A DNA stretch of 56,564 nucleotides, from contig JAERSW010000026.1 in the NCBI GenBank assembly GCA_016845305.1, positions 1 to 56,564 on the forward strand, given 5' to 3'. The translations under genes and the position numbers were made by a program. The first letter of the stretch is position 1, and each line of letters opens with the position of its first letter. The DNA is from Acidimicrobiales bacterium (GTDB lineage Bacteria; Actinomycetota; Acidimicrobiia; Acidimicrobiales; MedAcidi-G1). The notes under the pieces were generated by a model, which was given only the letters and a program-made list of their open reading frames with translations, made no database searches and was not told the DNA's origin. Of this stretch, positions 48,484 through 55,419 are shown one piece after another.

Positions 48484-49323
48484 TCACCAGATCGAGCGTC
48501 CCCCATCCATCACCAGGTTGTGACCGGTCAGGTAGGCAGAGGCATCTGAACACAGGAACTGCACGGCCGCCCGGTAGTCGCCGACCGAGGCCATGCGTCC
48601 GAGCGGGATCCTGCTCGAGAGGTCCGAGACGAAGGACTCGTCCTGATCGGTCTGGACCCCTCCCGGAGAGATGGAGTTGGCTCGCACTCCGCACTCGGGC
48701 CAATAGGTCGCCAGATACCTCGTCAGGCCGACGAGGGCCGACTTCACGACCGGGTAGGTCACCGGCTTCACCGGTTGTGACTCCGGGGGGAGCCCCTCCC
48801 GTCGATAGAGGCGCTGGTCCGGAGCCAGCACCGACAGGTCCGATGCGACGTTGAGAATCACCCCACCCCCCGACCCGGCCATGCGCCGGCCGAACGAACG
48901 GCTGCACAGGAATGCCCCTGTCAGGCCGACGGCGAGTTCCCGGTTCCAACGTTCCAGGGAGAACGCCTCGAGGCGAGAGCCATCGACCAGCCCATCGGAG
49001 TCGACCTTGGCATCCACGGCGGCGTTGTTCACGAGGATCGAACAACCCCCCTTCTCCAGAAGGCGCTCGGCGGTCGTCTCCACTGCCCGCTCGTCGGTCA
49101 CGTCCATCACCGTGGACTCCGCTGATCCACTTCCAGCGTCTCCGGCAACCATCTCGACAGCGGCGGCGAGGCCAGGCTCGTCCACGTCGGCGAGGACCAC
49201 GTGGGCACCCAGTTCCATCAGGGCCGCGGCATGTTCACGCCCCAGGAGCCCAGCGGCTCCGGTGACGAGCGCCGTCTGACCGGACAGGTCGAAGGCCGAC
49301 GGGGGAAGCGGACGTCCACTCAA
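48484..49323 (-). CDS. Short-chain dehydrogenase, PtmA-like, last gene of ulosonate operon
   Basis: Classical SDR, 279 residues, with [15 protein letters not shown] (NAD(P) site), NNAAVDAKVDS, catalytic Ser in NVASDLSVLAPDQRLY and YPVVKSALVGL for Tyr-x3-Lys, then the ending GGRSIW. The combination LAPDQRLYRREGLPPESQPVK resembles SDRs of sialic-acid-like and flagellin glycosylation loci such as PtmA; that link is from memory. The start is a TTG overlapping the previous stop as TTGA, with GGGGGA 9 bases upstream and no ATG nearby. The substrate is unknown. Confidence 0.82.
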   Translation of the reverse strand: MSGRPLPPSAFDLSGQTALVTGAAGLLGREHAAALMELGAHVVLADVDEPGLAAAVEMVAGDAGSGSAESTVMDVTDERAVETTAERLLEKGGCSILVNNAAVDAKVDSDGLVDGSRLEAFSLERWNRELAVGLTGAFLCSRSFGRRMAGSGGGVILNVASDLSVLAPDQRLYRREGLPPESQPVKPVTYPVVKSALVGLTRYLATYWPECGVRANSISPGGVQTDQDESFVSDLSSRIPLGRMASVGDYRAAVQFLCSDASAYLTGHNLVMDGGRSIW

Positions 49324-50075
49324 CGACTCTGTCCCCCATCCAATGTCCAGACTGCTCCCGTGGCGAACGCCGACTGGGAGGAACCCAGGTACTCGACGAG
49401 CGGCCCGACGTCTTCCGGACGTCCCAATCTCGCGAGCGGGACCTCACGTTCCAGCATGGACTGCACCGAGGAGGGGTCGTCGCCGAGGCGGGATGCCCAG
49501 ACCGAGTCGTCGTGGAGGATGTTCCCGAGGGCCACGACGTTGATCCTGACACCATCATCGGCCAAGGGCGCGGCCATCCCCCTCACGTAGGCATGGAGTG
49601 CGGCCTTGGCCGCCGAGTAGGTGACCGGTGCTCCGGGCACGACGACGGATCCGCAGATCGACGAGATGCACACCACCGATCCTCCACTCTGGGCCAGCAC
49701 GGTGCGAGCGGCCTCGACGACGTTGGTCGCCGACCAGAGATTGAGGGCGAAGACCCGCTGCCATTCGTCGGGGGTCTCCATCCCGGGTGCGACCGATGCT
49801 CCCCCACCCACGTTGCAGACGACGAGGTCGAGGCCTCCCAACGCCTGCGACGCCACCTCGACGACGGCCCGAGCCCCACCGAGGTCGGACACGTCTCCTT
49901 CGGCCGCGACCGTCCCTGCACGGTTCGCGACCACCTCGCCGACGCGAGCCGACGTCCTTCCGTTGACGGCGACCTTCCAGTCGGCAGCAAGAAGGTGGTC
50001 GACGATTCCGAGGCCCACGCCTCGCGTCGAGCCCGTCACCAGGCAGCGACGTGACGCTCGCCCATCAGGCACCAT
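49320..50075 (-). CDS. Short-chain dehydrogenase/reductase
   Basis: Classical SDR, 251 residues. The nucleotide motif is LVTGSTRGVGLGIV, followed by CNVGGGASVAP, catalytic Ser in VVCISSICGSVVVPG and YSAAKAALHAYVRG for Tyr-x3-Lys, and a C-terminal VWTLDGGQSR. The ATG at 50075 overlaps the TIM-barrel gene by 11 bases. With the neighbouring SDR it could act in two redox steps, for example oxidation and reduction around the aminotransferase step, but this is inference. Confidence 0.83.
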   Translation of the reverse strand: MVPDGRASRRCLVTGSTRGVGLGIVDHLLAADWKVAVNGRTSARVGEVVANRAGTVAAEGDVSDLGGARAVVEVASQALGGLDLVVCNVGGGASVAPGMETPDEWQRVFALNLWSATNVVEAARTVLAQSGGSVVCISSICGSVVVPGAPVTYSAAKAALHAYVRGMAAPLADDGVRINVVALGNILHDDSVWASRLGDDPSSVQSMLEREVPLARLGRPEDVGPLVEYLGSSQSAFATGAVWTLDGGQSR

Positions 50076-50901
50076 GGCGATCGATCCACTCCGCGACCAT
50101 CGTCGAGTACCGGACGACGGCCGCCACATGGTCGCCATCCGAAGCCCGCGCCGTCTGGAGGACGTAGTTGCCCTCGTACCCCACCGCCCCCAACGCTCGG
50201 AAGACCGACTCGAAATCGGCGTCTCCCTCGCCGAGGGGCACCGTGGTCCCACCACGGCTCCTGTCCTTCACGTGCACGTTCCCGATCCGATCGCCATAGG
50301 CCGAGATCTCCTCGGTCGGATCGAAGCCGAGGGACGCGCTGTTTCCGATGTCGTAGTTGACGCCGAAGAACTCGGGATCGAGACGATCGATGAACCGGGC
50401 GAGATCGACTGGCGGGAGATCCGATTCGAAGAGGACCCGAACACCGGAGCCGACGAACTCAGCCGCGACCTCTGTCAGGAATCCGAGAAGGCGGGACTCC
50501 TCCTCCGTCTCGATGGCGCCGTCGTCCACGAGCGGCACGACGACTGCCGCCACGCCGAGCACCCGACAAGCGGCCAGCACTGCCAGGAACTCCTCCTGCA
50601 GGTCCGCCTCCACCGAACCGCTCGCCTTCCAGAAGGGGGCCTGCATGAAGCAGTCTCCGGTCACCGATGGAACGTGGATCCCGTGCCGGGCACTGAGTTC
50701 CCTGATCGTCGCCCGGCCGGAGGTCGACATGAACGGGTTGGCCGACAGTCCCTCGTGGTCGAGAGTCCACTCCATCAGCTCAAGCCCGATTTTCTCTGCC
50801 GTGGAGAACTCCTCCTGCCAGTCGTCGACCGGAAACGCCTGGATCCTTCCGGCGACGGGCGACGACAACCGACCCTGCATGACGCCGATCCTGTGAAACA
50901 C
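50065..50901 (-). CDS. Xylose isomerase-like TIM-barrel protein
   Basis: Predicted sugar (phosphate) isomerase or epimerase, 278 residues, of the AP-endonuclease-2/xylose isomerase-like fold. It begins HRIGVMQGRLSSPVAGRIQA and has metal-ligand candidates in LFESDLPPVD, FGVNYDIGNSA and GNVHVKDRSRGG. Proteins with this MQGRLS-type start are familiar from surface-sugar clusters, but I know of no proven reaction. The GTG start is 3 bases after the VOC gene stop. Confidence 0.8.
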   Translation of the reverse strand: MFHRIGVMQGRLSSPVAGRIQAFPVDDWQEEFSTAEKIGLELMEWTLDHEGLSANPFMSTSGRATIRELSARHGIHVPSVTGDCFMQAPFWKASGSVEADLQEEFLAVLAACRVLGVAAVVVPLVDDGAIETEEESRLLGFLTEVAAEFVGSGVRVLFESDLPPVDLARFIDRLDPEFFGVNYDIGNSASLGFDPTEEISAYGDRIGNVHVKDRSRGGTTVPLGEGDADFESVFRALGAVGYEGNYVLQTARASDGDHVAAVVRYSTMVAEWIDRHGA

Positions 50902-50904
50902 GAC

Positions 50905-54301: not shown

Positions 54302-54824
54302 CGACCTCTTCCCCGCTCATGCGGCCAACGCCGAGCATACGCTCGACGAATCCACGGACGAATGACTCACCGCCCTGCTCTGCGAGGACCGTGTCCACAG
54401 CCTCGAGCACCAACGGATGGGCGTCCGAAGGCGCCACCGACCAGCCGACCCGCCGAAGAACCGGTAGGTCGTTGAGGTCGTTGCCCAGGAAGACCACGCC
54501 CTCGAACGGATCGTCCTCGGACGGAAACCGCTCGGAGAGGTGGTGCTCGAGGAAGGCCAGCTTGTCACCCACGGCCTGATGGCAGGCCAACCCGAGCTTG
54601 TCTGCTCTGGCCCGGACGACGGGATTCGCCTCGGTCGAGAGGATGAAGATCTCGGCGACCAGCCACCCTCTCCGCCTTGCCACACGGAGCAGATCGATCG
54701 CCAGGCCATCGGCCCGGTCGCAGCGAACGAACTCCCGGCCCTCGGCGTCGATCCATACCTTGTTGTCCGTGAATACCCCGTCGAAGTCGAGGACGATGGT
54801 GTGAATCTCTTCCGGCGTCAACAT
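54279..54824 (-). CDS. KdsC-type HAD phosphatase
   Basis: HAD-family C0 phosphatase, 181 residues, of the type that removes the phosphate after an ulosonate-phosphate synthase (Kdo-8-P or Kdn-9-P phosphatase) and that is fused to vertebrate CMP-sialate synthetases. It shows the Asp nucleophile motif IVLDFDGVFTDN, ILSTEANPVVRARADKL, VFLGNDLNDLPVLRRVG and APSDAHPLVLEAVD. The ATG at 54824 lies 4 bases after the GmhA-like stop. It lacks GmhB-type motifs, so it is not the heptose bisphosphatase. Confidence 0.88.
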   Translation of the reverse strand: MLTPEEIHTIVLDFDGVFTDNKVWIDAEGREFVRCDRADGLAIDLLRVARRRGWLVAEIFILSTEANPVVRARADKLGLACHQAVGDKLAFLEHHLSERFPSEDDPFEGVVFLGNDLNDLPVLRRVGWSVAPSDAHPLVLEAVDTVLAEQGGESFVRGFVERMLGVGRMSGEEVDELVSDR

Positions 54825-54828
54825 CGGT

Positions 54829-55419
54829 TCAGGCGAGGCCCAACTCGCTCTCGATGATCTCGCAGAACACATGGCCGATCAGGATGTGGGCTTCCTGGAT
54901 GCGTGCCGTCGAGTCGCTGGGGACCACCAATGCATGGTCGACCAGGTCGAGCGCCTCACCTCCGCCCTTTCCCAATAGGCCGACAGTGGTCAACCCACAA
55001 GTCCCCGCTGCCCGATAGGCCGCGTTCACGTTGCGGCTACGACCCGAGGTCGAGATCCCGACCAGGACGTCGCCCGGTCGGCCGACCGCCTCCACCTGGC
55101 GGCTGAAGATGTCGTCGTAGCCGAAGTCGTTGGCGATACACGTCAGGACCGAAGTGTCGGTGTTGAGGGCGATCGACCGGAGGGGCCGTCGATTCCCCTT
55201 GAATCGACCGACGAGCTCCGCAGCGATGTGCTGGCTGTCCGAGGCACTCCCTCCGTTGCCACACCAGAGGATCCCCCCTCCCCGATCGAGGCACGCAGCC
55301 ATCAGTCGACCGACTTCGATCACCGATTCCGCCAGCGAATCCATCGTCCGTCCAGCGGTGTCGATGTGTTCGGTGAACGCCGCTGAGACGATCTCCTCAG
55401 CGTTCACCGGCAGGAGCAC
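54829..55419 (-). CDS. GmhA-type SIS-domain sugar phosphate isomerase, first gene of ulosonate operon
   Basis: The 196-residue protein is close to sedoheptulose-7-phosphate isomerase: [72 protein letters not shown] and the C-terminal Glu/His-containing [15 protein letters not shown]. GmhA makes D-glycero-manno-heptose 7-phosphate; here it may provide that or another aldose phosphate to the NeuB-like synthase. GTG 55419 is used. A second in-frame GTG at 55404 follows AGGTG with better spacing and may be the real start. Confidence 0.88.

Follow-up and report, generated by a model that had tools for sequence, protein, structure and literature searches.

The window analysed here is a stretch of 56,564 nucleotides from an Acidimicrobiales bacterium (contig JAERSW010000026.1). 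At 48484-55419 it carries an operon that we read, with reasonable confidence, as a horizontally acquired and modular route to an amino-ulosonic acid of the cell surface, activated with cytidine monophosphate (CMP). Nine minus-strand open reading frames (ORFs) fill this interval and encode, in order, a GmhA-type isomerase, a KdsC-type phosphatase, a short NeuB-type synthase, a NeuA-type cytidylyltransferase, a class III aminotransferase, a VOC protein, a TIM barrel and two short-chain dehydrogenases/reductases (SDR1 and SDR2). The gaps between them are +4, -23, -4, 0, -4, +3, -11 and -4 bases when the starts at 54824 (phosphatase) and 50075 (SDR1) are selected. An initial annotation of the window had described nine minus-strand genes spaced from -23 to +4 bases, and all nine are present with that spacing; its family assignments agree with the Pfam and NCBIfam profile comparison of the nine proteins in every case. 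It had also proposed that isomerase, condensation with phosphoenolpyruvate (PEP), dephosphorylation and CMP transfer form a complete ulosonate route, and these enzyme families do occur together in one conserved unit. Its gene list was correct for the nine but missed a tenth member, a methyltransferase gene that lies outside this interval.

The gene set recurs in many other bacteria. A single scan of genome contigs with the aminotransferase returned 44 loci (34-74% identity), many of them on cut contigs, from Betaproteobacteria, Chlorobium, Synechococcus, Prochlorococcus, SAR11, SAR116, SAR86, Magnetococcales, Nitrospinae, Scalindua, Elusimicrobia, a Woesearchaeote and others. When the window's proteins were compared by BLAST with all ORFs of these loci, NeuA was found in 40, VOC in 38, NeuB in 37, SDR2 in 27, the TIM barrel in 26, SDR1 in 25, GmhA in 24 and the phosphatase in 13. 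The aminotransferase gene is directly preceded by NeuA in 32 of the 44 loci and directly followed by VOC in 32. The complete NeuA-to-SDR2 set of six genes occurs in 23 loci. The initial annotation had suggested a search for co-occurrence in the same order, which, run here through the aminotransferase, recovered the NeuA-to-SDR2 order on one strand in 20 of the 44 relatives. It had also named the case that would undo its proposal, a known Kdn or legionaminate pathway with unrelated passengers; this case fails, as the extra enzymes accompany NeuB and NeuA across phyla. Because the six-gene order and strand recur in this way, the arrangement cannot be put down to chance and the extra enzymes are not passengers, and the comparison identifies the set as a conserved pathway rather than a Kdn or legionaminate set with additions. 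Parts of the pathway also occur in metagenome-assembled genomes (MAGs) of small size, those of a Woesearchaeota member (L032, 1.3 Mb) and a Colwellbacteria member (L043, 0.5 Mb).

The pathway appears to be modular at its downstream end. The aminotransferase, VOC protein, TIM barrel and SDRs had been listed as five extra enzymes; they do travel with NeuB and NeuA, but they divide into a core pair, the aminotransferase and VOC, and a TIM-SDR1-SDR2 set. The downstream core is NeuA-aminotransferase-VOC, with TIM-SDR1-SDR2 removable. A family of small radical S-adenosylmethionine (SAM) proteins stands beside the aminotransferase-VOC core in L017, L019, L033, L036, L042 and L044, the SPASM domain having been tested in L033 only. 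Radical SAM enzymes of the SPASM kind include an alcohol dehydrogenase that precedes transamination (BtrN). Since this family accompanies the core where the TIM barrel and SDRs are missing, the pattern suggests that it is an alternative alcohol oxidant feeding the aminotransferase, and would fit oxidation to a ketone prior to transamination. Near several loci there are also B12-type radical SAM proteins (a cluster in 7 of the 44; for example L033:9866-11320, L012:15828-17282 and L017:10618-12006, with the models compared for L012), which suggests C-methylated variants.

The upstream part is exchangeable as well. NeuB loci are of two kinds: those with a short NeuB, the kind seen in the window, where GmhA and the phosphatase often accompany it, and those with a long NeuB, accompanied by GmhA and by HddC-type and CBS-HddA-type genes, and in some cases by GmhB and an ABC transporter. 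The families of the long-NeuB loci were profile-tested in L008 and assigned by clustering elsewhere. By Pfam, the long NeuB of L008 (4768-6657) consists of NeuB, SAF and a second TIM-barrel domain; similar proteins are found in L004, L005, L006, L007, L010, L011, L015, L018, L021 and L034, that of L021 carrying an extra N-terminal part; the sequences of L004, L007, L021 and L034 were inspected directly. HddA- and HddC-type genes occur in L004-L008, L010, L011, L015 and L018, and GmhB in L005, L008, L015 and L018. Thus these sister loci have a heptose kinase and a guanylyltransferase-type gene, and the window operon has neither, GmhA often being common to both kinds of module. On the NeuB tree the short clade (26 rows, support 99/98) and the long clade (11 rows, 98/94) do not track taxonomy, and one divergent row, L045, falls in neither. 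HddA is found in 10 of 11 long-NeuB loci versus 2 of 25 short-NeuB loci (p 2.7e-6, kinship ignored, the window and L045 excluded). On the aminotransferase tree (41 rows, with the cut or odd rows L023, L025, L038 and L040 left out) parsimony places five switches between NeuB kinds, of which well-supported branches force at least four; the row sister to the window, L021, comes from an Acidimicrobiales contig and has a long NeuB (98/94). Because the modules swap above identical downstream genes, both would most simply make the same acid.

The coordinates and family assignments are collected in Table 1, and the residues expected of active enzymes are largely retained. GmhA has the phosphoheptose isomerases 1tk9 and 2xbl as its nearest solved chains; its GNGGS motif and the columns of Glu68, Gln175 and His183 are at least 95% conserved (25 rows), and these, which we take to be the catalytic and phosphate-binding motifs, match in the alignment with both chains. 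The phosphatase scores better with the Kdn-9-phosphate phosphatase model NF058599 than with KdsC models (70.7 and 65.6 bits), and Glu56 and Lys67 of 3e81, presumably the Bacteroides Kdn-9-phosphate phosphatase, are kept in it. Glu8, Lys36, Gln38, His198, His220 and Asp231 of the short NeuB are identical in the aligned Neisseria NeuB. The aminotransferase is nearest to GABA, ornithine and acetylornithine aminotransferases, with DEMQ and Lys301 at least 95% conserved (45 rows), and the same level holds for His6, Glu65, His89 and Glu136 of VOC, four presumed metal ligands (39 rows), for Gly15/19/21, Ser139, Tyr153 and Lys157 of SDR1 (26 rows) and for Ser161, Tyr190 and Lys194 of SDR2 (28 rows). 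The AlphaFold model of the TIM barrel (pLDDT 93.3) has the overall fold of the ketose 3-epimerase (UlaE/DTE) family, UlaE 3cqj being nearest (Z 28.3, root-mean-square deviation (rmsd) 2.6, 264 residues aligned). A promoter and terminator scan found nothing, the method being uninformative for this organism.

Table 1. Genes of the operon and the displaced methyltransferase gene, in window positions
Feature	Position	Strand	Basis
GmhA-type sedoheptulose-7-phosphate isomerase (SIS_2)	54829..55419	-	TIGR00441 198.5 bits, cut-off 209.45
KdsC/Kdn-9-phosphate-phosphatase-type HAD phosphatase	54279..54824	-	NF058599 80.7 bits, cut-off 180
Short NeuB-type ulosonate(-phosphate) synthase, no SAF	53462..54301	-	279 aa, NeuB domain 23-260 (PF03102)
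NeuA-type cytidylyltransferase	52704..53465	-	PF02348 (CTP_transf_3) 72.4 bits; PseF model 97.7, cut-off 205.7
Class III aminotransferase, pyridoxal phosphate Lys301	51330..52703	-	PF00202 (Aminotran_3) 286.9 bits
VOC (glyoxalase-fold) epimerase/isomerase	50905..51333	-	Glyoxalase_4 57.8 bits
AP_endonuc_2 TIM barrel, ketose-3-epimerase fold	50065..50901	-	Pfam and AlphaFold model; Gln249 at fourth metal-ligand Glu
SDR1, FabG/glucose-dehydrogenase-like oxidoreductase	49320..50075	-	Pfam/NCBIfam
SDR2, gluconate-5-dehydrogenase-like oxidoreductase	48484..49323	-	Pfam/NCBIfam
Class I SAM methyltransferase, displaced tenth gene	44115-44816	+	56-62% identity, about 220 aa, to methyltransferases of relatives

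We propose the following pathway. GmhA would convert a ketose phosphate to an aldose phosphate, most likely starting from sedoheptulose 7-phosphate, the substrate that we assume from knowledge of the family; we regard this step as roughly an even call. The short NeuB would then condense the aldose phosphate with PEP to a 3-deoxy-2-ulosonate phosphate, a reaction type expected of its family with a substrate deduced from the context, and the KdsC-type phosphatase would, like its family, take off the phosphate. In the modification stage, whose chemistry and order we consider somewhat probable, SDR1 and SDR2 would generate a ketone from a secondary hydroxyl by oxidation, with VOC and the TIM barrel acting on the neighbouring centre via an enediolate; the aminotransferase would turn the ketone into an amine and the displaced methyltransferase would attach a methyl group. 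NeuA would form the CMP-sugar, as its family does, and a LIC12162-family GT-B transferase together with a PglK/MsbA-like ABC transporter, both encoded on another contig (C124), would place the sugar into a surface glycan. The product would probably be an aminated, methylated ulosonic acid. The scheme draws on gene content, gene order, residue conservation and phylogeny.

Several observations weigh against this scheme. Each of the nine proteins stays below the cut-off of every NCBIfam model among the matches listed. Sixteen of the 44 loci lack the TIM barrel, SDR1 and SDR2, some of them on short contigs; the radical SAM family is present in six of these but not in L014, L016, L018, L021, L025, L034, L038, L040, L041 and L043, in part because contigs are cut. 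L024 and L030 hold SDR2 only, and L035 the TIM barrel only. Gln249 of the TIM barrel is invariant in 18 of 18 rows and lies opposite a Glu of UlaE, presumably catalytic and metal-binding, the second such Glu thus being missing; because the fourth metal-ligand Glu is replaced, it is unlikely that this protein is an ordinary two-Glu ketose 3-epimerase. NeuA directly precedes the aminotransferase, and modification could follow CMP activation; the aminotransferase could instead make an amino-acid substituent. Finally, the transferase and transporter lie on a separate contig, so their link to the operon rests on neighbourhood in relatives.

How many carbons the acid has depends on the substrate of NeuB. 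We infer that GmhA feeds NeuB, and the kinases that would otherwise consume a heptose phosphate were sought with limits of E 1e-30 for HldE and E 1e-15 for HddA (1e-10 for HldE in the window's own genome). In that genome an HldE kinase is absent (the best score is 46.5 bits, cut-off 345) and HddA gives no match, the same HddA query scoring 709-1051 bits in G126-G128. Twelve of the searched genomes have GmhA beside or near a short NeuB (those of the window, L003, L009, L014, L020, L026, L027, L030, L031, L032, L035 and L037), and five of them have neither an HldE nor an HddA match: those of the window, L009 (Synechococcus UW105), L026 (SAR86), L030 (Pelagibacteraceae) and L035 (Rhodothermales). 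HldE is above the cut-off in L003, L020, L031 and L037; L014 has an HldE match of 212 bits and an HddA-like match, and L027 and L032 have an HddA-like match. As 5 of the 12 genomes show no heptose kinase match, NeuB is likely the user of heptose 7-phosphate, the absences being soft because MAGs and single-cell genomes are incomplete. An actinomycete locus found via NeuB (L078) has the order GmhA-NeuB-NeuA-aminotransferase-VOC and no HddA match in its genome, which we do not count as kinase-free because of a weak HldE-like match of 107 bits.

The distribution of GmhA was followed more widely. Eleven searched genomes have a short NeuB locus without GmhA (L012, L013, L017, L019, L022, L024, L028, L033 and L042-L044); GmhA is matched elsewhere in nine of these, and an HldE match above 300 bits is present in eight, L022 and L043 having neither and L013 an HldE match of only 107 bits. 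Overall, GmhA matches were found in 27 of 30 genomes searched, with a copy above the curated gmhA cut-off in only three, and in 149 relatives of the window genome other GmhA-type matches reach at most 172.2 bits, versus 198.7 in its own. Among the short-NeuB loci, a genome HldE match below 300 bits was seen in eight with an operon GmhA and three without, against four and eight (Fisher p 0.10, kinship ignored; L029, L036 and L041 left out), an association that is only suggestive. On the GmhA tree, in which L035, L026, L034 and L040 form long branches and three rows intended as housekeeping copies (hk_L052, L053 and L054) are the operon copies of L003, L037 and L009, the copies of short-NeuB loci come from several branches (the window with L009 and L014; L003 with L037; others), and L020, L035 and L039 group with copies of HddA loci. 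Because of this scatter, GmhA has probably been recruited more than once.

Taken together, these comparisons favour heptose 7-phosphate over mannose 6-phosphate as the substrate of NeuB. It is therefore tempting to speculate, as a tentative proposal only, that D-glycero-D-manno-heptose 7-phosphate and PEP would yield a ten-carbon 3-deoxy-dec-2-ulosonic acid, which would then be aminated, methylated and CMP-activated. Rather doubtful, in our view, is a nine-carbon product of the Kdn type, in which NeuB would use mannose 6-phosphate, the GmhA-like protein would isomerise fructose 6-phosphate or supply heptose for another residue, and the extra enzymes would amino-modify Kdn. The phosphatase fits this, scoring best with the Kdn-9-phosphate phosphatase model and aligning with 3e81, and so does the synthase, as a NeuB without a SAF domain is not expected to have an N-acetyl recognition arm. 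GmhA itself falls slightly below its curated cut-off, and short-NeuB loci without GmhA exist (L012, L013, L017, L019, L024, L028, L033 and L042-L044, with L022, L036 and L041 cut or unsearched). However, the GmhA copies that accompany short NeuB are scattered over several branches of the tree and keep the phosphoheptose isomerase motifs, most of the searched genomes without GmhA in the locus have a match elsewhere, and the absence of HldE and HddA from the window's own genome leaves a separate heptose residue unsupported there.

The modification enzymes could also be read in two other ways. They might make an amino or hydroxy acid and so provide an acyl or amide substituent for an otherwise simple ulosonic acid, which would agree with the nearest relatives of the aminotransferase, with the action of FabG-like SDRs on acyl chains in other pathways and with the common N-acyl variety of nonulosonic acids. 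We consider this improbable: the nine genes encode neither an acyltransferase nor an amide synthetase or carrier protein, and three viral contigs (L062, L063 and L065) link the TIM barrel and SDR2 to ulosonate and not to an amino acid, as NeuB, TIM and SDR2 occur there with no aminotransferase detected. Alternatively, one transcript might serve two unrelated pathways, one leading to a CMP-ulosonate and the other aminating a small molecule. The separability of TIM-SDR1-SDR2, each absent from a good part of the relatives, is what such an arrangement would produce, but NeuA before and VOC after the aminotransferase recur across many phyla, and NeuB, NeuA, aminotransferase, VOC and radical SAM genes stand together on the viral contigs L058 and L059, making it very improbable.

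The set differs from the described pathways. The initial annotation had stated that it matches none of them, which is borne out by the profiles: no NeuB, PseI, PseF, KdsB, Kdn-9-phosphate phosphatase or gmhA cut-off is reached, with 241.7 bits for the NeuB/NnaB equivalog TIGR03569 (cut-off 399.65), 175.6 for PseI (cut-off 340.25) and 97.7 for PseF (cut-off 205.7). The enzymes that it had reported lacking, a 4,6-dehydratase, an acetyltransferase and a UDP-GlcNAc 2-epimerase, are indeed absent from the nine proteins. A legionaminic or pseudaminic acid route was rejected, since the nine lack a dehydratase, a DegT aminotransferase and an acetyltransferase; this search, like that for the 2-epimerase NeuC, covered these nine proteins and not the rest of the genome. 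A Kdo route was rejected because the synthase is of the NeuB type (PF03102) and the KdsB scores are marginal (22.6-46.4 bits, cut-offs 155-281), the KdsC score being 65.6 (cut-off 208).

Closest in logic is the Kdn/Neu5Ac-9-phosphate route, in which a phosphorylated aldose is condensed with PEP, dephosphorylated by a HAD phosphatase and activated by a CMP synthetase. NeuB, the KdsC-type phosphatase, nearest the Kdn-9-phosphate phosphatase model, and NeuA are shared with it, whereas the window also encodes a phosphoheptose-type isomerase together with six modifying enzymes, the methyltransferase included. The GDP-D-glycero-alpha-D-manno-heptose pathway (GmhA-HddA-GmhB-HddC) shares GmhA, and the sister loci add HddA and HddC types, but in the window genome HddA gave no match and HldE none of weight. 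In C7N-cyclitol tailoring, a ValD-type VOC enzyme epimerises a keto sugar before transamination by ValM; a VOC enzyme and an aminotransferase are likewise paired here, and a sugar-phosphate cyclase is missing from the nine genes. The nonulosonic acid (NulO) locus of Leptospira interrogans, in the available passages of its report, likewise has three entries with neighbouring accessions: YP_002102 for a CMP-NulO synthetase, YP_002103 for an aminotransferase whose step is unassigned and YP_002104 for a second NulO synthase (PMC3438082). The same passages report a synthase-phosphatase fusion in this species, and as products Neu5Ac and a di-N-acetylated NulO, with no link to heptose in them (PMC3438082). 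In the literature searched, mostly outside subscription papers, we found no description of the gene set and no paper on deculosonic acids.

Two lines of evidence bear on the origin of the operon. Its genes have a GC content of 0.62-0.68 and a third-position GC content (GC3) of 0.71-0.83, versus 0.93 in the upstream GalE gene and 0.94 and 0.934 in the downstream CofD-like and CofE-like genes, in line with the lower GC that the initial annotation had noticed. The aminotransferase query at E 1e-100 matches only one of 100 related genomes, the window's own, with no match in 16 other genomes of the same genus, and the short NeuB query at E 1e-85 matches 3 of 396 genomes of the phylum, its own included. 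Given this rarity in relatives and a GC3 below that of the flanking genes, the operon was probably acquired horizontally. The methyltransferase gene probably entered with it and was displaced later: its counterparts sit between VOC and TIM in nine relatives (L004-L006, L008, L011-L013, L037 and L039), and its identity to these copies together with an operon-like GC3 of 0.798 (0.93 in the adjoining epimerase, 0.95 in the GDP-mannose 4,6-dehydratase) argues that it belongs with the operon. By clustering, at least 20 of the 44 loci hold this family, a lower bound, L036 having a further methyltransferase. The genes that now separate it from the operon (44851-48443) look native and include, at 44851, an NAD-epimerase family gene that scores best with LegB (134.8 bits, cut-off 475), a GDP-mannose 4,6-dehydratase (450 bits, above cut-off) and, judged by eye, CofD/CofE-like genes.

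As for the fate of the sugar, a LIC12162-family protein is encoded in 10 of the 44 loci, in several directly after SDR2. That of L007 (Chlorobium) scores 522 bits with TIGR04331 (cut-off 225), and its AlphaFold model (pLDDT 83.8) has a GT-B-like part; the best structural match, SenB (Z 12.8, rmsd 3.9, 272 residues aligned over 212-593), is a generic GT-B match, and no CMP-sugar transferase is prominent among the matches listed. A QHGG motif is invariant in 10 rows of the family. The window's genome encodes a homologue (41%) on contig C124, with a PglK/MsbA-like ABC transporter (37% to that of L008) and, judged by eye, glycosyltransferases, a UDP-sugar dehydrogenase and two oxidoreductases. The presence of transferase and transporter suggests a surface glycan.

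The pathway is also found on viral contigs. Plasmid or phage carriage of the closest aminotransferases was rejected, five plasmid and nine annotated phage records all being generic and below 60% identity, and a scan of viral contigs with the aminotransferase gave no confirmed relative. A scan with NeuB gave four IMG/VR loci in which NeuB is partnered by an aminotransferase or a radical SAM gene: L058 (from 5572), L059 (from 6001), L060 (from 5920) and L071 (from 5932), with NeuB identities of 64-69% in the first three and 44% in L071. L058 and L059 carry NeuB with NeuA, aminotransferase, VOC and radical SAM genes, L060 carries NeuB with radical SAM only, and L071 carries NeuB with NeuA, aminotransferase, methyltransferase and VOC. 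L059 has phage-type neighbours (genes for a helicase, a ParB-like protein and a DNA methyltransferase) together with an HNH gene; no PHROG match was obtained for three neighbour genes of L058. The NeuB-TIM-SDR2 combination occupies L062:653-9955 and L065:6001-9557, and L062 also holds a 3-dehydroquinate-synthase-like cyclase, a SIS isomerase and two cytidylyltransferases.

Acidic ulosonic sugars of the surface affect phage attack, immune recognition and adhesion, and the cassette is present in abundant marine groups (Prochlorococcus, Synechococcus, SAR11, SAR116 and SAR86), in part on phage contigs. If GmhA truly feeds NeuB, the operon would define a class of ten-carbon ulosonic acids, a new size class beside the eight-carbon Kdo and the nine-carbon sialic-type acids, spread over Actinobacteria, picocyanobacteria, SAR11, SAR86, Chlorobi, Magnetococcales and others; the sister loci would then reach the same acid via GDP-heptose and the NeuB-SAF-TIM enzyme. 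Even if the product has nine carbons, these genes would represent a modular and widely shared pathway that would otherwise be read as plain sialic acid synthesis.

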